In this document: positions 17,874 to 29,560 of the stretch, piece after piece
How the letters are laid out: the number at the start of each line of letters is the position of its first letter
Position numbering within the stretch: position 1 is the first letter of the stretch
Assembly (NCBI GenBank): GCA_028824555.1
Contig: JAPPDJ010000011.1
Span: 1-63,066, forward strand
Length of the DNA: 63,066 bases
From: Gammaproteobacteria bacterium
Lineage (GTDB): Bacteria > Pseudomonadota > Gammaproteobacteria > Pseudomonadales > Azotimanducaceae
Direction: 5' to 3'
Translations under genes and position numbers: made by a program
Notes under the pieces: model-generated
What the model was told of the DNA's origin: nothing
Seen by the model: only the letters and a program-made list of their open reading frames with translations
Database searches by the model: none

Positions 17874-19265
17874 TCACGCCGGCTTCTTCCGCGCCTTGCG
17901 CTTGGCTGGCGGGGACCAACCGGAGATGTTGCGCTGGCGAGCCCGGCCGACGGCAAGACCCTCCTTGGGAACGCGGGTGGTGACGGTTGACCCGGCGGCG
18001 ATGTATGCCTGGTCTTCGATGGTGAGGGGCGCTACAAGGGTCGAGTTGGTGCCGATGAATGCGCCTTCCCCCACTTGCGTCTCGTGCTTGTCGACGCCGT
18101 CATAGTTGCAGGTGATGGTGCCGGCGCCAACGTTGCTGTCCTTGCCAATCGCGGCATCGCCGAGATAGGCGAGGTGGCTCGCCTTCACGCCGTCGCCTAG
18201 CCGCGCCTTCTTCGTCTCCACAAAGTTGCCGATGCGAACCGCTTCACCGAGCTCCGTGCCTGGGCGCAGCCGGGCGAAGGGACCGATTTCCGAGCGGCGG
18301 CCGATCACGGCGCCGTCGATGACGCTGTGGGGCTTGATGTGGGCGCCATCGCCGACCGTGGCGTCGCGGATTACGCAGCCTGCCTCCACCACCACGTCGT
18401 CGCCGAGCGTGACCTCCCCCTCGAAAACGACGTTGATGTCGATGAAGCAGTCACGCCCGGCAGTGAGGTGGCCACGGATGTCCAATCGGGTGGGGTCGGC
18501 GATGGTAGTACCGCCGGCCATCAGTCGCTCCGCCTGCGCACGCTGCCAATGCCGTTCCGCTTGCGCCAACTGGCGACGGTCATTGACGCCGAGGGCTTCC
18601 GTCGCTCCTCCCTCCACCGCGCGGATGGAGATGCCGCGATGCGCCGCAAGGCCCACGACATCGGTGAGGTAATGCTCGCCCTGGGCGTTGTCGGCACCCA
18701 CTTCGCCAAGCAGTTCGCCCAGCAGGGCGGCGGGCGCGGCGAGGATGCCGGTGTTGATCTCGCGGATGGCCTTCTGTTCGGGAGTGGCGTCGCGTTCCTC
18801 AACGATGCCGGTGACGCGACCATCCGCCGAGCGCTCGATGCGACCGAGGCCAGCCGGTTGCCCGACATGCGCCGTAACCAGCGCCAAGCCAGAGACGGCC
18901 CCGGCCACGCATCGCTCGAGCACCTCTGTCCGAACCAGCGGCACATCGCCGGCGAGCACGAGCACCGTGGCGTCGTCGGCCACGTCCGGCAGCGCCTGCA
19001 TCGCCGCATGACCCGAGCCCTTGCGTTCGCGCTGCAAAGTCCAGTGGACGTCGGTTCGAGACGAAAACGCTGCCCGCACCGCCTCAGCTCCCTCGCCAAC
19101 CACTACCCGCAAGGCCGCCGGCTGCAAAACCCCCGCCGCATCTAGCACATGCCCAAGCAAGGGCCGCCCGCCAACACGATGCAGCATCTTCGGCAGCCGA
19201 GAACGCATCCGCGTGCCAGCTCCAGCCGCAAGCACTATCACTTCCAGTGAAGTTTCCCGCTCCAT
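17874..19265 (-). CDS. glmU: Bifunctional UDP-GlcNAc pyrophosphorylase / glucosamine-1-phosphate acetyltransferase
   Basis: Catalyses the last two steps to UDP-GlcNAc. The N-terminal uridyltransferase begins VIVLAAGAGTRMRSRLPKMLH, and continues with GEGAEAVRAAF and VLAGDVPLV. The C-terminal half is a left-handed beta-helix of hexapeptide repeats (residues about 250-430). The acetyl-transfer region is GNFVETKKARLGDGVKASHLAYLGDAAIG, followed by NVGAGTITCNYDGVDKHET, all conserved. I chose the ATG at 19265 (463 residues; E. coli 456). A GTG at 19283 is possible. A TATAAT at 19301-19306 sits just upstream. In most gammaproteobacteria glmU directly follows atpC; here about 10 kb has been inserted between them. 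Confidence 0.96.
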   Translation of the reverse strand: MERETSLEVIVLAAGAGTRMRSRLPKMLHRVGGRPLLGHVLDAAGVLQPAALRVVVGEGAEAVRAAFSSRTDVHWTLQRERKGSGHAAMQALPDVADDATVLVLAGDVPLVRTEVLERCVAGAVSGLALVTAHVGQPAGLGRIERSADGRVTGIVEERDATPEQKAIREINTGILAAPAALLGELLGEVGADNAQGEHYLTDVVGLAAHRGISIRAVEGGATEALGVNDRRQLAQAERHWQRAQAERLMAGGTTIADPTRLDIRGHLTAGRDCFIDINVVFEGEVTLGDDVVVEAGCVIRDATVGDGAHIKPHSVIDGAVIGRRSEIGPFARLRPGTELGEAVRIGNFVETKKARLGDGVKASHLAYLGDAAIGKDSNVGAGTITCNYDGVDKHETQVGEGAFIGTNSTLVAPLTIEDQAYIAAGSTVTTRVPKEGLAVGRARQRNISGWSPPAKRKARKKPA

Positions 19266-19300
19266 GCGTCTCCATGCCTTCACGCGAAGGGCAGCGGCAG

Positions 19301-20456: not shown

Positions 20457-20720
20457 GCGCCCGAAGGTGTTCGGGTTCGCGAAGCCTCCCGGTTCGACCT
20501 GCAGTCGTCAATGCCAACGTAACCAGCGGGACGGCCTGGTCCTGGAGCGCCTCGGAGCGAGGGCCTTGGGAGGCGAGCATCCTGCCCTCGCAATGCGCCC
20601 AACGCGCGCGCCGCTACGCAAACGCACGTCCATGCACGCGCCTCGCGCATAATTGGCCGGCTACGACGGTGCTGGCTCCCTGCCGAGCGTTGGGCGATGG
20701 TTGCGCGAGGAGGCGGCTCC
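20457..20720. other. Divergent intergenic region between the DUF1971 gene and the AlbA_2 gene
   Basis: About 264 bases that should hold promoters for both flanking genes. A diverged family B repeat (hairpin arms GAGGGCC...ATCCTGCCCTC around 20558-20590) is visible. A CATAAT near 20647 could be a -10 for the plus-strand gene, but no matching -35 is clear. Confidence 0.4.
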
Positions 20721-21959
20721 ATGCAGGAACCAAAGAGCTATTCCGAGGCGGAACTGGCCTCGCTGATGGTCGATGCAGAGCCCGATCTCGTCGAGCGCAA
20801 GGCCGCCTTCGCCGGCGACGCGCCGAATTCGGTGCGCGAGGCCATTTGTGCTTTCGCCAACGACTTGCCGGGGCACGCCCGGCCCGGTGTTGTCTTCATC
20901 GGTGCCGGCGACGACGGCACGCCGAGTGGCCTCGAAATCAACGATGCGTTGCTGTTGAAGCTGGCGCAGTGCCGATCCGACGGCAACATTCTGCCGCCAC
21001 CGACCATGACCGTGGCGAAGCACAGGCTGCACGGCAAGGACGTGGCCGTGGTGACGGTCGAGCCAGCGGATGCGCCGCCCGTCCGTTATCGGGGTCGCAT
21101 CTGGATCCGCATCGGGCCCTCCCGAGCGCTGGCTTCGGCACAAGATGAACGCATCCTCAACGAGCGGCGCCGCCACGGCGACGCACCTTTCGACGCACGA
21201 CCTGTGTACAGCGCAACCCTTACGGACCTAGACCTACCCCGATTTCAATACCTGTATCTGCCAAGTGCCTTCGACCCCGAAGTGCTTGCGGCCAACGATC
21301 GCACGTTGGAGGAGCGGCTGGCAGCCACGAAGATGATCGTCGCCGCAGAAGAACCGACTCCAACCGTGCTCGGCATTCTGATGCTGAGCCCGAAGCCGAC
21401 GCGCTTCCTGCCCGGCGCCTATGTGCAGTTTCTTCGCTTTAACGGCACCGAGCGCCATGATCCCATTGAAGACAACCTGCGATGCGATGCCCCTTTGCCG
21501 GACATCATTCGCGACCTTGACGCCACCATGCGCGCCCACATTCGCACTTCCGTAGAGGTCGGCACCGGAACCACCGAGGTGCGTCGCGCCACCTACGCGC
21601 TGACTGCCTTGCAGGAACTGGTTCGCAACGCCGCCATGCACCGTACCTACGAAAGCACGAACAGCCCAATCCACGTGAGCTGGTTCGAGGACCGCGTCGA
21701 GATCATCAGTCCTGGCGGCCCCTACGGCGACGTTTCCGCGGCCAACTTCGGCCAGCCCGGCATCGTCAGCTACCGCAACCCCAACCTCGCCGACGCGATG
21801 CGTGTGAGCGGCCTGGTGCAACGCTACGGCGTCGGCATCCCCCTCGCCCGCCAAGCGCTACGAGAGAACAACCAGCCGGGACCGACCTTCGAGGTGGACA
21901 CGAACCACGTCCGCTGCACCGTAACCATCCGCCCCGACTGGCGTCCACGCCAAACCTAA
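20721..21959 (+). CDS. AlbA_2 / HATPase_c_4 domain protein (Schlafen-like putative regulator)
   Basis: A 412-residue protein starting at the ATG 20721 behind GAGGAGGCGG. The N-terminal Schlafen/AlbA_2 domain spans about residues 10-130, with VERKAAFAGDAPNSVREAICAFANDLPG and VVFIGAGDDGTPSGLEI. The C-terminal half has the HATPase_c_4 pattern: LQELVRNAAMHRTYEST, SWFEDRVEIISPGGP, then QRYGVGIPLARQAL. The family is commonly annotated as RecG-like or as a transcriptional regulator and is frequent in defence and mobile regions. It is the only plus-strand gene of the island and converges on the TOPRIM-like gene. Its biochemical role is unproven, and a sensor or regulator function is inference. Confidence 0.85.
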   Translation: MQEPKSYSEAELASLMVDAEPDLVERKAAFAGDAPNSVREAICAFANDLPGHARPGVVFIGAGDDGTPSGLEINDALLLKLAQCRSDGNILPPPTMTVAKHRLHGKDVAVVTVEPADAPPVRYRGRIWIRIGPSRALASAQDERILNERRRHGDAPFDARPVYSATLTDLDLPRFQYLYLPSAFDPEVLAANDRTLEERLAATKMIVAAEEPTPTVLGILMLSPKPTRFLPGAYVQFLRFNGTERHDPIEDNLRCDAPLPDIIRDLDATMRAHIRTSVEVGTGTTEVRRATYALTALQELVRNAAMHRTYESTNSPIHVSWFEDRVEIISPGGPYGDVSAANFGQPGIVSYRNPNLADAMRVSGLVQRYGVGIPLARQALRENNQPGPTFEVDTNHVRCTVTIRPDWRPRQT

Positions 21960-22501: not shown

Positions 22502-23071
22502 TCAAGGATTAGCGAGTTCCGACTCGATCAGGCGTGCTAGTCGGCCGAAGTCCTCTGGGCACTTTTGGCGTATCGCCGACAGTCGACGCGCAGCCTGCTC
22601 ACCTAGCCGCTTGCGGCCACCACCGGGGCCTGCCGCCACGCCGAGTCGCCGGGCCAACTCGTCAAAGTAAACACCCTTGACGTTGACTTCGGCTCGAACG
22701 GCGGACCACGACCATTCCTTGGGGAGGTCCAATCCAGCCAACGCCCACGTTTCGACCTCCTCCCATGCGTTCTCCGCAAGAAACGCCTCGTGTTCGCCGA
22801 ATTCCGTTTCGATCTGGTCGAGCCGATGCCGCCGACCAACCACGCCATCTCGGTCCACGCACAGGATGAACATGTCGGCCATGGGATATCGCTCCACGAC
22901 CTCCTCGATCCGTTCGCTCTTCAGCGCCTCGCCGACGCCGCCAAGCAGAGGGTCCTGGCAGACGGTGACACGAGCCTGCGCGCTACCCAACGAACGTAAA
23001 AGCTGACGGAAGATTGGCGCGAGGATGTACTGATCCTTGCGGAAGTCCTCCGGAATCACGACCACTCGCAC
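22502..23071 (-). CDS. TOPRIM-like protein (DUF4276-type), partner of the AAA ATPase
   Basis: A 189-residue protein that begins two bases after the AAA ATPase gene ends, so the two are certainly co-transcribed. It shows a TOPRIM-like set of acidic residues: E8-D9 in VVVIPEDFRKDQY after the first strand, the D73-R-D75-G motif in FILCVDRDG, and a Glu cluster in NAWEEVETWALAG (104-107). This resembles DUF4276/DUF4435-type proteins that act in trans to an SMC-like ATPase, as AriB does for AriA in PARIS. Whether it cleaves nucleic acid is inference; the metal-binding acids are present. No better family match is recognised. Confidence 0.65.
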   Translation of the reverse strand: MRVVVIPEDFRKDQYILAPIFRQLLRSLGSAQARVTVCQDPLLGGVGEALKSERIEEVVERYPMADMFILCVDRDGVVGRRHRLDQIETEFGEHEAFLAENAWEEVETWALAGLDLPKEWSWSAVRAEVNVKGVYFDELARRLGVAAGPGGGRKRLGEQAARRLSAIRQKCPEDFGRLARLIESELANP

Positions 23072-23073
23072 CT

Positions 23074-24363
23074 TTATTCTTCCTCGAAGTAAACGGCGTC
23101 CTCAAGCCAACCGGACATGTGCAGCCTGTTCAAGCCTTGCGTACGCCGCAGCTCTTCTGCGTTCGGCAGGTCGGCGATACGCCGGATCACCGCATCGCCT
23201 CTATCTGGCCGACGACACACGACGGAGGTGTTTCCAAAAGTGCTGTCGTTCACCATCGCCAGCAGTTCCGGGGAGTGTGTGGTCGTAACTACCTGAATGT
23301 CCTTCTCTTTGGTCCTGCTCTCGATGAGATCAACGAGCAGGCGCAGGCGCGACGGGTGGATACCGTTATCGATTTCCTCGAAGAAATGCAGCCCGGAGGT
23401 GTCGTCGTCAAGCAAGGTGGCAAGCATGGCAAGGAAGCGCAGAGTTCCATCCGACGCCGAGTAGGCAGATACCGTCCTCCCGTCACGTTCCTTGATGGCT
23501 AGCTGAACCCACCCCGTAGTGGGGTCGATGGGGAAGTCGAAGTCTGCGACATCCATCGGCGTGAGCTCCCGGGTCCACTCAAGCAACGTCTCCCTTCGGG
23601 CGGGGTCTTCGCACAGTTTGCGCAACACGGTCGGAAGATTGTCGCCGCTGTCTCCTAGTACCGTCTGGCCAGGGAAGGCAGGTTGACGCATTCGATCTGG
23701 AGCGGGCTCAAGGAAACGCATGTCTCCAAGCACTTTCACTACCTTGCTGGCTTCTTCCTTATGCCGACGCAATGCGCGCTTGTGCTCGCCGAGCTGCGTG
23801 ATGGCCGGCTGCGCCGGCCTGACGGCAAGACGGTGGCCAAACTTGCGCTGATTGCGCGCCTTCTCCATTCGCAGAAGCAAGTGCGTCTCATCGCCTTGCG
23901 CGCGAACAGGGTCCCCTTCGGCGGGATGACTTGTGTAGGTGGCCTGGGCATTCCTGAAGCCCATCACAGTCAGTGCTTCACCGGTGACCACGAACCCGGC
24001 TTCATTCGTCGAAGCCATCCAGAGCCGGTACCAAAAGTCGTGGGTGGGCCAAGGTTCATCGGCCGAGCGAAGGCGAACTTGCATCCCCATCGCGGGCTGT
24101 TCGAAACGCATGATTTCGTCCGCGGCGCCGCGGATGCCATTCCATTCGGCTTGACCACCAGCCCCGTACCGTCCCCCCAAGATCTCCGCCAACGTGTAGC
24201 CGCGACCGATCCCGTGGAGGAACCGAAACGCATCGCGTATGTTGCTCTTGCCACTCGCGTTTGCACCGACTATGACAGTGAACGGCCCAACGACCAGACT
24301 CTCGTCGGCGAAGTTCTTAAAATTGGCGAGCCGTAGGTTGGTAATCACCGCCTGTAGGCCCAA
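23074..24363 (-). CDS. AAA ATPase, SMC/ABC-like (AAA_21, RecF/OLD type)
   Basis: A 429-residue ATPase with a split ABC/SMC head. N-terminal ITNLRLANFKNFADESLVVGPFTVIVGANASGKSNIRDAF contains Walker A (residues about 33-40). The C-terminal part has SASDGTLRFLAMLATLLDD (signature-like), FFEEIDNGIHPSRLRLLVDLI (Walker B) and VVTTTHSPELLAMV (switch His). No zinc-hook coiled coil is present. Translation may start at TTG 24363 or GTG 24348; both have poor ribosome sites. It pairs with the small TOPRIM-like gene two bases downstream. Such ATPase plus TOPRIM pairs occur in phage defence (OLD, PARIS, Gabija-like logic), so a defence role is likely but not shown. Confidence 0.85.
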   Translation of the reverse strand: MGLQAVITNLRLANFKNFADESLVVGPFTVIVGANASGKSNIRDAFRFLHGIGRGYTLAEILGGRYGAGGQAEWNGIRGAADEIMRFEQPAMGMQVRLRSADEPWPTHDFWYRLWMASTNEAGFVVTGEALTVMGFRNAQATYTSHPAEGDPVRAQGDETHLLLRMEKARNQRKFGHRLAVRPAQPAITQLGEHKRALRRHKEEASKVVKVLGDMRFLEPAPDRMRQPAFPGQTVLGDSGDNLPTVLRKLCEDPARRETLLEWTRELTPMDVADFDFPIDPTTGWVQLAIKERDGRTVSAYSASDGTLRFLAMLATLLDDDTSGLHFFEEIDNGIHPSRLRLLVDLIESRTKEKDIQVVTTTHSPELLAMVNDSTFGNTSVVCRRPDRGDAVIRRIADLPNAEELRRTQGLNRLHMSGWLEDAVYFEEE

Positions 24364-24496: not shown

Positions 24497-25246
24497 CTAG
24501 TCGCCCAGCGCCTTGTCCGCCTGCTCTAGAACCATGCCTTCCAGCTGGGTGTCCGACAAAGCATCTATAAGGCGCATCCCACCTTGCCGGTTGAGCCGCT
24601 TCATCCAATCGCGGAAGATGTCCCTCTCAAACAAGCGTCGCTCTCTCGTCCGGAAGTCCTTCTCCATTGCGTTATACACGCACCTCAGCACACGATAGTT
24701 GCGAGAGACCGACGGGCGCTCGATTAGCGCAGATCTCGGATCCTGCCGATAAAGCACGACTTGTAGAAAACGGCCAGGATCCTCCGGTACGACATTGTGC
24801 GCTATATGGCCGAGCCACCACAACCTCGAAACCCCATTGTCGCGAATCAGGCCCCGGTTCCCGTTCACGAAGAAATGATTGCGAACTCGATCAATCAGTC
24901 GCGCGTCATCCCCGCCATTGAGCCATCGCCTAGCAATATATCCAGCACATTCGTTATGCGCCAAGTAGGTCCAAAGGCGTTCGTCAGATGCCTGATAGGG
25001 GGTTAGCTGATCCAACGCACGATAGACCACCAAGGCATTATCTCCGTCGTGCTTACCCGGGGATCTACCACGAGTTTTTAGGACACTAGCCAGCCCGCCC
25101 ATCGTGATTCGCGTCTCCCGCGTCGGACGTGGCGACGTCAGGGAAATAGCTTCGGGACCTCCGCTAAGATACCACTCAACGCGAGAGCCGATTCCATCGC
25201 GGAGCTCGTCAACTGCCTCCATCGTGTAGTAAATCACCACGCTCAT
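24497..25246 (-). CDS. DUF6339-like protein
   Basis: A 249-residue protein whose ATG overlaps the stop of the upstream gene by four bases (ATGA). Landmarks are YQASDERLWTYLAHNECAGYIARRWL (about residues 83-108), RVRNHFFVNGNRGLIRDNGVSRLWWLGHIA (about 119-148) and a Lys/Arg-rich C-terminal part. This pattern resembles the DUF6339 family, which I recall accompanying cytosine methyltransferases and GHKL ATPases in defence-like operons; that match is from memory and not verified. No nuclease motif is evident. It is the last gene of the four-gene coupled operon. A DNA- or RNA-acting effector role would be inference from context only. Confidence 0.6.
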   Translation of the reverse strand: MSVVIYYTMEAVDELRDGIGSRVEWYLSGGPEAISLTSPRPTRETRITMGGLASVLKTRGRSPGKHDGDNALVVYRALDQLTPYQASDERLWTYLAHNECAGYIARRWLNGGDDARLIDRVRNHFFVNGNRGLIRDNGVSRLWWLGHIAHNVVPEDPGRFLQVVLYRQDPRSALIERPSVSRNYRVLRCVYNAMEKDFRTRERRLFERDIFRDWMKRLNRQGGMRLIDALSDTQLEGMVLEQADKALGD

Positions 25247-26109
25247 TGCTGCGTTGCCTCCTCAACCGCGAGGAAGGGCAGCTCACCAAACGGGTCGTTG
25301 AGGATTTTCTGCGCATCCTCGAGCCGGTCATTCTCATCGCCGTCGCCAATGGCCCTGAGCTCACACCGCGCCAATGCCTCCTGTAGCGCACTATACCAAC
25401 GGAATTCCTCGTAGTCCTCCGAAGGACCCTTGTCGGCTTCCGCCAACACCCACGCCAGCGCCGGAAGATAGACGCTATTCATGATGTACGCTTTAGTTCC
25501 GCTAACGTCGGCTCTGCGACGCGCCTCCCTAAACCGATCGTAGTCCTCACGACTGAAAACAATCGTAACTTTGTCACCCGATATCGAGCATCTCCATTCG
25601 TTGGGGGGCTGCTCTTCGTTGTAGGACGTGCGGAACACGCTCTCCGGGGTCAGTTCCTCAGACGGCCGTATCCAAAACACGTCCGGAGGCTCCATTGCCA
25701 AGACCGAACCGGGACTCAAAGAATACGTCCTTCCCTCGTAGTCCTCATGCCAGTTCCGCGAGACAAACTCCTCCACGGTTTCTGTCGCGATCACATAGGC
25801 CTTCACTTCAACCTTGTCCCCGAGAAGGCCGTTCTCCGCCACCCACTCGATACTCGGTGTCCGGCTAGGGATCAGCTTACGAAAATGGGTGCTTGGGCAG
25901 CTCACCAACATGGCGTACGAGGCCCGTCCGGATTCAATCAGCTGCAGAATGGCCTCATCGCTGAGATCGAAATCCGCTACAAACGTCACCTCGGTGGAGC
26001 GCTCTTGCGACTCGGCATCCACCTCTACTTGGAACTCGCATCGCTCGTAGTCAGAACTTCCCGCCCGCAGCACTGGCCACGGCCAAGACTTCGACGAGAC
26101 GAAATTCAT
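25243..26109 (-). CDS. Unrecognised island protein, operon partner of GHKL ATPase
   Basis: A 288-residue soluble protein of no family I recognise. The ATG at 26109 overlaps the stop of the ATPase gene (ATGA), and its own stop overlaps the next start in the same way, so it is translated as part of the unit. The N-terminal two-thirds are beta-rich with alternating hydrophobics (YERCEFQVEVDAESQERSTEVTFVADF). The C-terminal third is helical (YDRFREARRRADVSGTKAYIMNSVYLPALAWVLAEA). A short motif GDKVEVKAYVI at about residues 107-117 has an ExK spacing as in some PD-(D/E)xK folds, but without a clear preceding Asp motif. It is a candidate for a missing effector or adaptor, and the function is unknown. 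Confidence 0.6.
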   Translation of the reverse strand: MNFVSSKSWPWPVLRAGSSDYERCEFQVEVDAESQERSTEVTFVADFDLSDEAILQLIESGRASYAMLVSCPSTHFRKLIPSRTPSIEWVAENGLLGDKVEVKAYVIATETVEEFVSRNWHEDYEGRTYSLSPGSVLAMEPPDVFWIRPSEELTPESVFRTSYNEEQPPNEWRCSISGDKVTIVFSREDYDRFREARRRADVSGTKAYIMNSVYLPALAWVLAEADKGPSEDYEEFRWYSALQEALARCELRAIGDGDENDRLEDAQKILNDPFGELPFLAVEEATQQ

Positions 26110-28061
26110 CCTTCCGACTCCTTCGCGTATGCACGGATCTGCCACGCGGCATTGAGGTCAGCTTCGCCCTCCAAGCGAAGCGTGTGTCGCCTGCCCGTCA
26201 CCAAGCCTACCTCGGCAACTTCAGCGCCCTCATCATCCAAGAGAAGGACGTCCTCCCGCTTAATGGCCGAGGAGTCACCGACTTCCTCCGCCAACACTGT
26301 GCCGACAACAGATTCCGTCGCCGTGAAAGCAACACGGGCTCGCGTGGTATCGGCTGGATCAACGATCACGCGTACGTCAGTCAGTTCGATAGGCCTTCGG
26401 CCACCCTTGGAGCCTCCCTTGGGTCCAGATCCGCCCGTACCCAAGCCATCCCCGGTTCCGCGGGTCCCTCCCGTTCCAGGTACATTCCCCCCTTCACCTT
26501 TGCCGTCGTCACCGCCACCCGCGTCGCCACCGTCGTCGCCCGCATCACCCTCGTGCTCACCCTCCTCAATGGCCAACGGGGACGCGACCCTCACCCTCGT
26601 TCTTGGCGGTTTGCGCCTAATCCCGCCAACCTCGCCGAAACTTGGTTGACCGTCCCTCGACGTATCATCGTCAAACGCACCGGGTTGGTCGGTATAGAGG
26701 AAATCGACCAATTCCTCTACATCGTCACTAACTTCCGCCAACTTCTGGGACGCATGCTGTCGTAGCATTTCCCTGATCCATCTGCGAAGACGGTCAAGAG
26801 CGCGCCGCCCCCTCCTCTTCTCATCGTCGGTATGCAATCGAGAATACTCGAACTGATTGTGGGACGGGTTCTCCATGCGTCGCAGAAGCTCGTTGCCTTC
26901 CTCGTCATCGAAGACGCACACGGCCACATAGTCGCGCAAGCCTCGGAATCGGTGTCCCTGTTGCTCATCCGTAATAAGCATCCCCGTCCTCCGGATCAGC
27001 GCCGTGCGGTTCGGAAAGCTATCGACATCGGGGAAGTCGTCCTCTGTCCCAATCCATAGCTTCACCGAGCCGAGGTCTTCGTCGTTCCACACCTCGACCG
27101 GGTCCAGTTTCGTCAAGTTCCAGTATAGGCTCGAGCGACGTACCAACTCGTCGTCCTCGTTGACCAGCTTCGCAAACTGATGCCCGATCGTCGTACCCTT
27201 GATCTCCCAATCGCTGTCGGACCCGTCACCCTCGTCCGGTTCCAGCAGAACCTCAAGGTCGCCCTTTTCGATGGCATAGAAGAAGTTGACGATGACACTT
27301 CGCGCGATTGCCTGTTGCCACCTTGCGCCCGCTTGGCTTGGCTCAAAGGCCATCACCCAAACTGCGGTCCCCGCCTCGCCGGGTTTAGAGGTTGGTCGCA
27401 GGCTCACTGGAATCTGATTACCCGCCAACGCCTCGCAGTCCGGCACCGTTCCGAAGAAGCCGGTAGCCTGCGTCATCTCGGGGCCGTTGCCGAAATCATG
27501 GTCATGCGACACCAAGACTGCTTTGCCCTGCAGCCTTTCGACCGTCGCGCCATCCTGCTCAAATGAGGACCAGTAGAACACCGTACGGAGCGGTGACAGC
27601 GTGAATGGCGCCGCCTTGCCAACCCCAAACGACCCACCCGCGAACTCGGAGGACTTGAAGCTCGCACCGGTTGTCTTGACTAGGCCGCGCCACGCATCTC
27701 CGGCCAAGCCTGTTGTGTTGCTGTCGATTATCCCGAGCACAGGCACGGTTTCGCTCTTTAGGACCTCGCGCGCTCGGTCGAACGTCCGCGCAGCCTTTGC
27801 ATCATGCTGCCAAGCAGTGGCGCAACTCTCAATGTGCTCCGCCAGGATGGCACCCCCGAAATCGGATCGCGCGACCTCCCGGATCTCGAACGTAACGTGC
27901 ACCGACCTATCCGCACTTGCACGCGCATCCACAGAGTTCTGCAGCACCTCACGCGCCAGGCTCGCCAATGGGGCCCCATCGAATGTAACGATGCCTGCAT
28001 CGTTGATCCCCGCCTCTACGCCGCCACCGGTCGGGGGAAAGCGCCAATCGATCTTAGTCAT
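26106..28061 (-). CDS. GHKL (Hsp90/MutL-like) ATPase of a methyltransferase-linked system
   Basis: A 651-residue protein starting at ATG 28061 and overlapping the methyltransferase stop by eight bases. The Bergerat ATP fold is clear: N box REVLQNSVDARA (general base Glu about residue 38, Asn 42), G1 box LGIIDSNTTGLAG (Asp113...Gly118), and G2-like GGSFGVGKAAPFTLS (about 142-156). A middle domain follows up to about residue 480. A low-complexity Gly/Asp/Glu linker (about 515-580) then leads to a C-terminal beta domain beginning RRPIELTDVRVIVDP. GHKL ATPases of MutL/MORC type are known in restriction-modification-like operons. The active site looks intact, unlike that of the neighbouring methyltransferase. 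Confidence 0.82.
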   Translation of the reverse strand: MTKIDWRFPPTGGGVEAGINDAGIVTFDGAPLASLAREVLQNSVDARASADRSVHVTFEIREVARSDFGGAILAEHIESCATAWQHDAKAARTFDRAREVLKSETVPVLGIIDSNTTGLAGDAWRGLVKTTGASFKSSEFAGGSFGVGKAAPFTLSPLRTVFYWSSFEQDGATVERLQGKAVLVSHDHDFGNGPEMTQATGFFGTVPDCEALAGNQIPVSLRPTSKPGEAGTAVWVMAFEPSQAGARWQQAIARSVIVNFFYAIEKGDLEVLLEPDEGDGSDSDWEIKGTTIGHQFAKLVNEDDELVRRSSLYWNLTKLDPVEVWNDEDLGSVKLWIGTEDDFPDVDSFPNRTALIRRTGMLITDEQQGHRFRGLRDYVAVCVFDDEEGNELLRRMENPSHNQFEYSRLHTDDEKRRGRRALDRLRRWIREMLRQHASQKLAEVSDDVEELVDFLYTDQPGAFDDDTSRDGQPSFGEVGGIRRKPPRTRVRVASPLAIEEGEHEGDAGDDGGDAGGGDDGKGEGGNVPGTGGTRGTGDGLGTGGSGPKGGSKGGRRPIELTDVRVIVDPADTTRARVAFTATESVVGTVLAEEVGDSSAIKREDVLLLDDEGAEVAEVGLVTGRRHTLRLEGEADLNAAWQIRAYAKESEG

Positions 28062-29127
28062 GGCGACCCCCAATTGCCGCGATGCACTGACGCGCCACAA
28101 CTTCAACCAGTGCGGGACAGGCCGCATTCCCAATCAAGCGGTATTGCTCGTGGATCGGAACCTCCTCCGGAAAGAGCCGCTCACAACAACCGAAACCTTG
28201 AAGCGCCGCCACTTCTTCCACGCGAAGCCTCCGCACGCCCCAAGTGTCCCTCACGAATGGGATGTTGTGGCCGCCGATACCCATGTTGGCTGTGAGGGTT
28301 GGACAAAGGCCGCCCTTCTTCTCCCTGACGTAGTTCCTTCGAAGTTGGTAGAGGTTCTTGGGCGATTCGCCCTTGGCAATTGCCGCCTCGATCATTTCCA
28401 AGTACTGATTGCCAGCCGGCAAATAGTCTTCCGGCGCCGCCCGCTGGCTTGAGTCCACTATGTCCAGCACCGTTCGTCTTGGCGCGCTGACGTCCGGTTC
28501 AACCACCGGAGCAGCGAATGGGTTGTACGAGAAGAAGTACTTCGATGCCGCCACCAAGAACAGGCGCTCTCGGTCTTGGGGGATGTCCGTGTACTCTCGG
28601 ACGTTCCCTATCCAGCAATGGGATTCGCGAAACCAATAGCCCGCTTGGCGAAGGGCCCTACGAATACGAACGAACCAGTCGCCGTCGGCCCCGTACAGAA
28701 GGTGGGGCACGTTTTCGAGCACGACGAACTTCGGTCGCTCGGCCGGGGTCCACTCCTTCAGCAACCGTGGAATCTCGAAAAACAGACTGCCCCTAGGATC
28801 GTCGAATCCCTTTCGGGCGCCAGCTTGGGAGAAGCTCTGGCTGGGGAATCCGCCAGCCAAGATGTCCACTGGCGTTAGCTGTCGCACGCCTAGGCATTTA
28901 ACGTCGGTCTCAATGAACGGAACCTCCGCGAACCTGTGTCGGAAAGTGCGCGAAGCGAATGGGTCGTTGTCGGTTGCCCAGTCGACTCGGAGGCCCGCGC
29001 TACGAAGACCGGTCGCAAATCCACCCATCCCACTGAAGAGGCAGCCCGCTGACAGTTCTTCTTGTTCGCGGCTTCCGGTCAACGCGATCTCTCGGCAGTC
29101 GGTCCCTTGCTCGATCTCGCGCAACAT
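28054..29127 (-). CDS. DNA cytosine-5 methyltransferase homologue with catalytic Cys replaced by Ser
   Basis: A 357-residue Dcm-family protein from ATG 29127, eleven bases after the atpC stop. Motif I is CLFSGMGGFATGL and motif VI FVVLENVPHLL. Motif VIII is DIPQDRERLFLV. The target-recognition region follows (about 205-300), then RRLRVEEVAALQGF and motif X LIGNAACPALVEVV. Motif IV, normally GGFPCQ with the nucleophile Cys, reads AGGFPSQSFS: codon 96 (bases 28840-28842, minus strand) is AGC instead of TGC, one base change. Without the Cys the known reaction cannot proceed, so it is either inactivated or a non-catalytic DNA-binding subunit. The frame is otherwise complete. It heads the coupled four-gene operon. 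Confidence 0.9.
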   Translation of the reverse strand: MLREIEQGTDCREIALTGSREQEELSAGCLFSGMGGFATGLRSAGLRVDWATDNDPFASRTFRHRFAEVPFIETDVKCLGVRQLTPVDILAGGFPSQSFSQAGARKGFDDPRGSLFFEIPRLLKEWTPAERPKFVVLENVPHLLYGADGDWFVRIRRALRQAGYWFRESHCWIGNVREYTDIPQDRERLFLVAASKYFFSYNPFAAPVVEPDVSAPRRTVLDIVDSSQRAAPEDYLPAGNQYLEMIEAAIAKGESPKNLYQLRRNYVREKKGGLCPTLTANMGIGGHNIPFVRDTWGVRRLRVEEVAALQGFGCCERLFPEEVPIHEQYRLIGNAACPALVEVVARQCIAAIGGRHD

Positions 29128-29137
29128 ACCACGATGG

Positions 29138-29560
29138 CTACCGCCGACGCTTTCGCAGCTCTTCCAGCGTTCGTTGCTGCGCCGTAGCCGCCGCCAGTTG
29201 GGCGGCGGCGGCGCCGTATTCGATTTCGGCCGCCGCGTTCTCCAGAGCATTTTCGGCTTGGCGCTGGGCTTCTAGGGCGGCGGCTTCGTCGATGTCTTCG
29301 GCTCTGAGGGCCGTGTCGGCGAGCACGGTGACGATTCCTGGCTGGACTTCCAGGTAGCCGCCTGAGGCGTAAAAGACTTCCTCTTCGCCGTCCGACTGGG
29401 TCAGGCGAACTACGCCTGGGAGGATGCCGGTCAGGAGGGGGGTATGGCCAGGGAGGATGCCTAGTTCACCCAGGGAGCCCTTGAGGGACACCATCGTCAC
29501 TTCGCCGGAGAAGATTTCCTGCTCGGCGCTGACGATGTGGCAGTGCATGGTGATGGCCAT
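29138..29560 (-). CDS. atpC: F1Fo ATP synthase epsilon subunit
   Basis: Central-stalk subunit of 140 residues that regulates ATP hydrolysis. The N-terminal beta sandwich [41 protein letters not shown] is typical. The C-terminal helical hairpin is rich in Ala/Gln/Glu ([37 protein letters not shown]), longer and more acidic than in E. coli. It is the last atp gene, 33 bases after atpD. The accessory methyltransferase operon follows 11 bases after its stop on the same strand, where glmU would usually be found. Confidence 0.96.

Follow-up and report, generated by a model that had tools for sequence, protein, structure and literature searches.

Serine at the catalytic cysteine position of a C5 cytosine methyltransferase in a PDC-M33-type candidate defence operon

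The window analysed here, a 63,066-nucleotide stretch of gammaproteobacterial DNA, contains a four-gene operon whose C5 cytosine DNA methyltransferase carries Ser at the catalytic position of motif IV. The three genes that follow, A, B and C, belong to the PDC-M33 (paraMORC2-like) type. We consider it probable that the methyltransferase of this candidate defence operon has recently lost, or nearly lost, catalysis, and that this was tolerated since A, B and C do not amount to a free toxic nuclease.

The methyltransferase gene (28054-29127, minus strand) starts with ATG, ends with TAA and comprises 357 codons with no internal stop. The 357-residue protein matches PF00145 (E 5.3e-46; 158 bits against a curated cut-off of 22) and TIGR00675 (dcm; 168.6 bits against a cut-off of 100.65), and it is the single PF00145 match in the genome assembly. 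Codon 96 (28840-28842, minus strand) is AGC, which places Ser in the context GGFPSQSF where every readable homologue has Cys. When the protein was compared with PDB sequences using phmmer, the best chains were those of M.HhaI and S96 aligned with position 81. We take this position to be C81, the catalytic nucleophile of M.HhaI; the best chain itself carries Ala there. The catalytic Cys of motif IV is absent from the window enzyme, with Ser 96 found instead, and the remaining motifs are present as FSGMGGF, ENV (138-140), QDRER (184-188) and GN (333-334). The original prediction had read AGC at this codon as turning GGFPCQ into GGFPSQ, in an uninterrupted frame with the other motifs recognisable. 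Both parts are borne out, the first by the codon and the M.HhaI alignment, the second by the open frame and by the invariant positions discussed below. The source assembly is a draft of 182 contigs that is 96% complete; at assembly level the Ser codon is genuine.

The genes of the operon run in the order methyltransferase, A, B, C, and successive genes overlap: A overlaps the end of the methyltransferase gene by 8 bases, B overlaps A by 4 and C overlaps B by 4. PDC-M33A (26106-28061, minus strand; 651 aa) is a GHKL ATPase with an ExxxH motif, resembling paraMORC2 (PADLOC PDLC04582, 6.3e-96). Its GHKL motifs are invariant in 21 aligned rows (E39, N43 and D46; D114, T117 and G119; G144-S-F-G147, G149 and K150), as is ExxxH, which is E398-H402 in a numbering one above that of the ATG-based protein. 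PDC-M33B (25243-26109, minus strand; 288 aa) matches PDLC04583 (9.7e-50), and PDC-M33C (24497-25246, minus strand; 249 aa) is a DUF6339 protein (PF19866, 2.2e-42; PDLC04586, 1.7e-38). The Pfam and PADLOC matches agree with the GHKL and DUF6339 neighbours named beforehand. With split genes left out of the alignments (L051 and L057 from A, L048 from B, L033 from C), the window proteins keep all 46 invariant residues of A, 10 of 11 in B and all 18 in C.

The predicted structure of B (pLDDT 91.7, pTM 0.70) has a beta-rich N-terminal part and a helical C-terminal part; that of C (pLDDT 94.6, pTM 0.91) is mostly helical. At E <= 0.001, Foldseek matched neither of these confident models to a solved structure. 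Weaker matches of B begin with a glycoside hydrolase (2.5e-3), followed by cytokine-receptor/Fn3 chains. At the sequence level B found no relative among solved structures, and C found ferritin-type rows alone, all weak (best E 0.097). Scans of A, B and C with Pfam, PADLOC and NCBIfam recognised no nuclease family; a nuclease of new fold may be hidden among the three. Literature searches for 'PDC-M33' and 'DUF6339' found no paper, and B and C are described nowhere in the literature so searched.

The operon sits in an island between atpC (29138-29560, minus strand; PF02823, 4.5e-29), whose stop is 10 bases from the methyltransferase start, and a glmU-like gene (17874-19283, minus strand; Hexapep, NTP_transf_3). 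Adjoining the operon is an AAA_21 ATPase gene (23074-24363, minus strand; Pfam, and PDC-M07A in PADLOC), which is taken as a separate candidate system outside M33; its match to MADS MAD3 falls below cut-off. The gene after it encodes a 189 aa protein with no family match (22502-23071, minus strand), and the island also holds a Schlafen/AlbA_2 gene (20697-21959, plus strand). GC3 of the four operon genes (0.63-0.69) is below that of atpC (0.75), atpD (0.91) and atpA (0.88), which suggests that the operon was acquired. The distance from atpC to glmU is about 1.1 kb in one related genome (G015), where glmS follows. Another (G014) was considered as a sister genome for strain comparison of the operon and set aside: it has no A match and the operon is missing at that place. 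Its atpC is 99% identical to that of the window, the DNA only 89%. A PIN gene is found at the island site of G014, which also retains a piece of the Schlafen/AlbA_2 gene (L126:874-1346), 99% identical over 473 bases.

A is matched in four of 97 related genomes (strongly in the window genome and G004, weakly in G048 and G002), and the PDC-M33A profile matches six of 369 genomes of the class at E <= 1e-20. When genome contigs were scanned with four aligned A proteins, 147 relatives came up, and 80 of these were kept. The order A, B, C is matched at 79 of these 80 loci, the exception being L050, where B is unmatched. A PF00145-like gene lies directly upstream of A at 23 loci and elsewhere in the fetched DNA at 38; in 19 none is found there, these counts being by fetched DNA, where several contigs end early. 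Among the flanking genes, 53 of 160 listed neighbours and ten small flanking ORFs were scanned, PF00145 being matched by seven of the 53. Among the 25 of 80 families listed, no nuclease recurs as a constant neighbour of A-B-C. Vsr genes follow C in L040 and L086, and a neighbour in L034 is a Mrr_cat gene. We note that six Paenibacillaceae loci (L041, L042, L043, L045, L047 and L075) have a second, longer PF00145-type methyltransferase after C; L041 is from Paenibacillus taichungensis DSM 19942. In L004 and L005, distant GHKL relatives of A lie directly 3' of an aminotransferase class V gene that may encode a cysteine desulfurase; the arrangement is reminiscent of phosphorothioate systems. The idea from reading the sequence that a neighbour in L031 is DndC-like was dropped, as the gene has no Pfam match.

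Motif IV was then compared across these loci. Cys is found in all 67 readable cases (66 of them distinct) among 71 methyltransferase-like ORFs; 63 were read by pattern and four by eye. The 71 ORFs, 69 of them distinct, come from 62 loci, with L006 (a repeat of L032) counted among them. Of the four unread ORFs, two are the same gene, listed twice, which has Cys in its other piece, and two are cut genes. Reading the residue in the closest homologues that directly precede A-B-C, a check proposed in the original prediction, gave Cys at 20 of 22 loci; the 21st (L032, the locus of G004) has its Cys on another contig and in the 22nd (L035) the methyltransferase gene is cut. For the 18 loci of the genus (L008-L025) the script read motif IV in eight, all Cys; the pattern missed ten, one of which (L019) was read separately and also has Cys. 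In viral contigs, the motif IV DNA pattern with a Cys codon finds methyltransferases in 119 of 120 cases among the matches listed, the pattern with AGY in none of 26 and that with TCN in none of 21. A search of viral contigs with the window protein gave no match, and the corresponding plasmid search gave 4776 records, every one below 60% identity. A Ser-bearing clade was ruled out, with no second Ser in the 67 readable of 71 related ORFs or in the viral pattern matches. Judged by the sequences compared here, the Ser is a lineage-specific singleton and not a family trait.

The age of the change was approached through an alignment of the window methyltransferase with 20 operon-type homologues, from which cut genes were left out (L006, L032 and L035, the first two being the same gene). 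The 20 homologues share 60 invariant positions; the window enzyme keeps 59 and loses only C96. A single departure is not unusual in number, since six of the 20 have at least one; what is unusual is that the residue is the nucleophile. In the tree the window enzyme groups with its G004 orthologue with support that is not strong (92/60), its end branch being 0.46 changes per column long. With 59 of 60 positions kept on such a branch, either Ser arose recently or constraint still acts on the protein. The lack of any other loss at the 59 positions bounds the time of free drift: at the mean rate of the gene itself, it would take up at most about 11% of the end branch, a rough figure.

The congener G004 (VXYL01000014.1, a gammaproteobacterial MAG) has the equivalent operon after atpC, with Cys in its methyltransferase (GGFPCQ). 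This gene is found in two pieces. The N-terminal piece follows atpC at the end of contig C5 (L019), and the C-terminal piece opens contig C21 (L003/L006), where A, B and C are open and 58, 52 and 62% identical to those of the window. The N-terminal piece stops 11 codons past the Cys, at the end of a repeat. The last 55 bases of contig C5 are also the last 55 of C20, and 24 bases from the start of C56 there is a 30-base core of this repeat end. Inverted ends TGAGGTGGTCCC/GGGACCACCTCA mark the junction of the two pieces, where 3 bases may be duplicated. From these ends of separate contigs, the G004 methyltransferase appears to be broken by a multi-copy insertion sequence. Single broken genes are also seen at other methyltransferase-linked loci (C in L033, B in L048, A in L051 and L057), which with L032 makes five of 22; sequencing error may account for the frameshifts seen in L048 and L051.

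Genomes were tested for 11 of the 19 A-B-C loci whose fetched DNA lacks a PF00145-like gene. In eight of these genomes a PF00145 gene is located elsewhere; for L061 and L109 it is about 1.6 kb past the end of the fetched DNA, provided that contig numbers correspond. The other three (L069, L091 and L106) have A-B-C and no PF00145 match genome-wide. N6-type methyltransferases are matched in all three (strongly in two, weakly in one), so another mark may give protection; one of the three has an N6/N4-type match with six stops. As far as these genomes can be read, A-B-C occurs without a C5 methylase gene, which does not imply the absence of any DNA methylation. In L069 (1888-11421), from a genome without PF00145, McrBC-type genes and A-B-C occur with an adjoining GmrSD gene.

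In the arrangement that we propose as the normal one, sites of the host would be marked by the methyltransferase, and A, the GHKL ATPase, would act on DNA together with B and C according to the mark. Replacement of the nucleophile by Ser would have removed catalysis, or nearly so, recently and in one lineage. A-B-C would not be a constitutive nuclease that kills unmethylated cells, and this would be the reason that loss of methylation is tolerated. The window operon would now either drift toward decay or work independently of methylation. The singleton Ser, the 59 of 60 positions kept, the break in G004, the genomes lacking PF00145 and the lack of a recognised nuclease together favour recent loss as far as sequence comparison goes. 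Against it is the conservation of the 59 other invariant positions and of all those in A and C, as in a working protein that is not catalytic. Recent loss or strong reduction is the simplest reading, followed by a weakly active enzyme and a non-catalytic subunit, and then by a consensus error. The original prediction had left three options: no active nuclease in the set, a non-catalytic reader, or a recent knock-out. The knock-out and the lack of a recognised nuclease are now favoured, and the reader is weakened.

The statement made there that methylation should be lost was too firm. To go by the title of Gabbara et al. 1995, an E. coli enzyme whose active-site Cys was replaced by Ser reportedly has partial activity. 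Ser could thus act as a weak nucleophile in the window enzyme, with low methylation being sufficient; the rest of the protein, which bears no sign of drift, is consistent with this. The Cys is, however, kept in all readable relatives, so reduced activity seems to be selected against, and only poor protection of a genome is to be expected from an enzyme that is much slower. We regard residual activity as unlikely. An error of assembly or consensus, or a minority strain variant, with Cys as the true codon, might be suspected in a draft of so many contigs. We judge this very improbable: the 357 codons are uninterrupted, all four operon genes read cleanly, and a random error at exactly codon 96 would be unlikely a priori.

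It is also conceivable that the Ser protein is a non-catalytic reader, which binds SAM and its DNA site and flips the base, serving as a site-specific sensor for A-B-C or blocking methylation by invaders. The intact partners and the otherwise conserved methyltransferase would fit such a role. For another defence protein, DndH, an inactive methyltransferase domain (DAM) has been proposed to act as a dominant negative (in the part of PMC10853773 that deals with it), and tight DNA binding is possible for Cys mutants of the C5 methyltransferase family, as described for M.EcoRII-C186A in the relevant part of PMC4437897. The same part reports that tight complexes of the EcoRII Cys-to-Ala mutant block replication in E. 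coli, which speaks against a reader. So does the lack of a second Ser among the related ORFs, since a Ser not inherited by a clade weakens the idea. In G004, moreover, the methyltransferase seems broken altogether with A-B-C open, so a bound protein is seemingly not needed for A-B-C to persist. On balance we hold the reader to be improbable. A specific form, in which the Ser protein is a non-methylating subunit that searches for its DNA site and passes on to A-B-C any DNA that is unmodified or foreign, strikes us as highly doubtful. If true, it would mean that a methylation-based defence had become a methylation-free sequence sensor in the window lineage.

Returning to recent loss, two congeners, the window genome and G004, appear to have lost the methyltransferase by different routes with A-B-C still open. 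The break in G004 hints that A-B-C can persist without the methyltransferase. The window operon offers a natural test of the dependence of paraMORC-type A-B-C defence on DNA methylation; if A-B-C works without it, it is not a classical restriction enzyme.

Compared with M.HhaI and Dcm-type C5 methyltransferases, the window enzyme shares the sequence around motif IV as well as motifs I, VI, VIII and X; they have the catalytic Cys where it has Ser. The window proteins A, B and C match all three proteins of PADLOC PDC-M33 in the order A-B-C. PDC-M33 is listed there as a candidate system, with models that carry no description, and the methyltransferase with its Ser is an extra gene in the window. 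In paraMORC2 GHKL ATPases the ExxxH motif comes late in the ATPase module, according to the paraMORC2 passages of Iyer, Abhiman and Aravind 2008 (PMC2292703). Likened by this motif description, window A shares the GHKL ATPase motifs, and its invariant ExxxH fits the one that paraMORC2 has in the S5 domain. The M33 loci share with the restriction-modification neighbourhoods of paraMORC2 described in those passages the link to Dcm-type methylases, and twice also Vsr. The window operon differs from them in having no SFII helicase or recognised endonuclease gene, and the passages contain no description of B or C. DndH, as presented in the part of PMC10853773 concerned with it, resembles the window protein as a dead methyltransferase in a defence setting, proposed to be a dominant negative. 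In that system the inactive domain is of the adenine-methylase type and is a feature of the system, whereas here it is a single cytosine-enzyme sequence.
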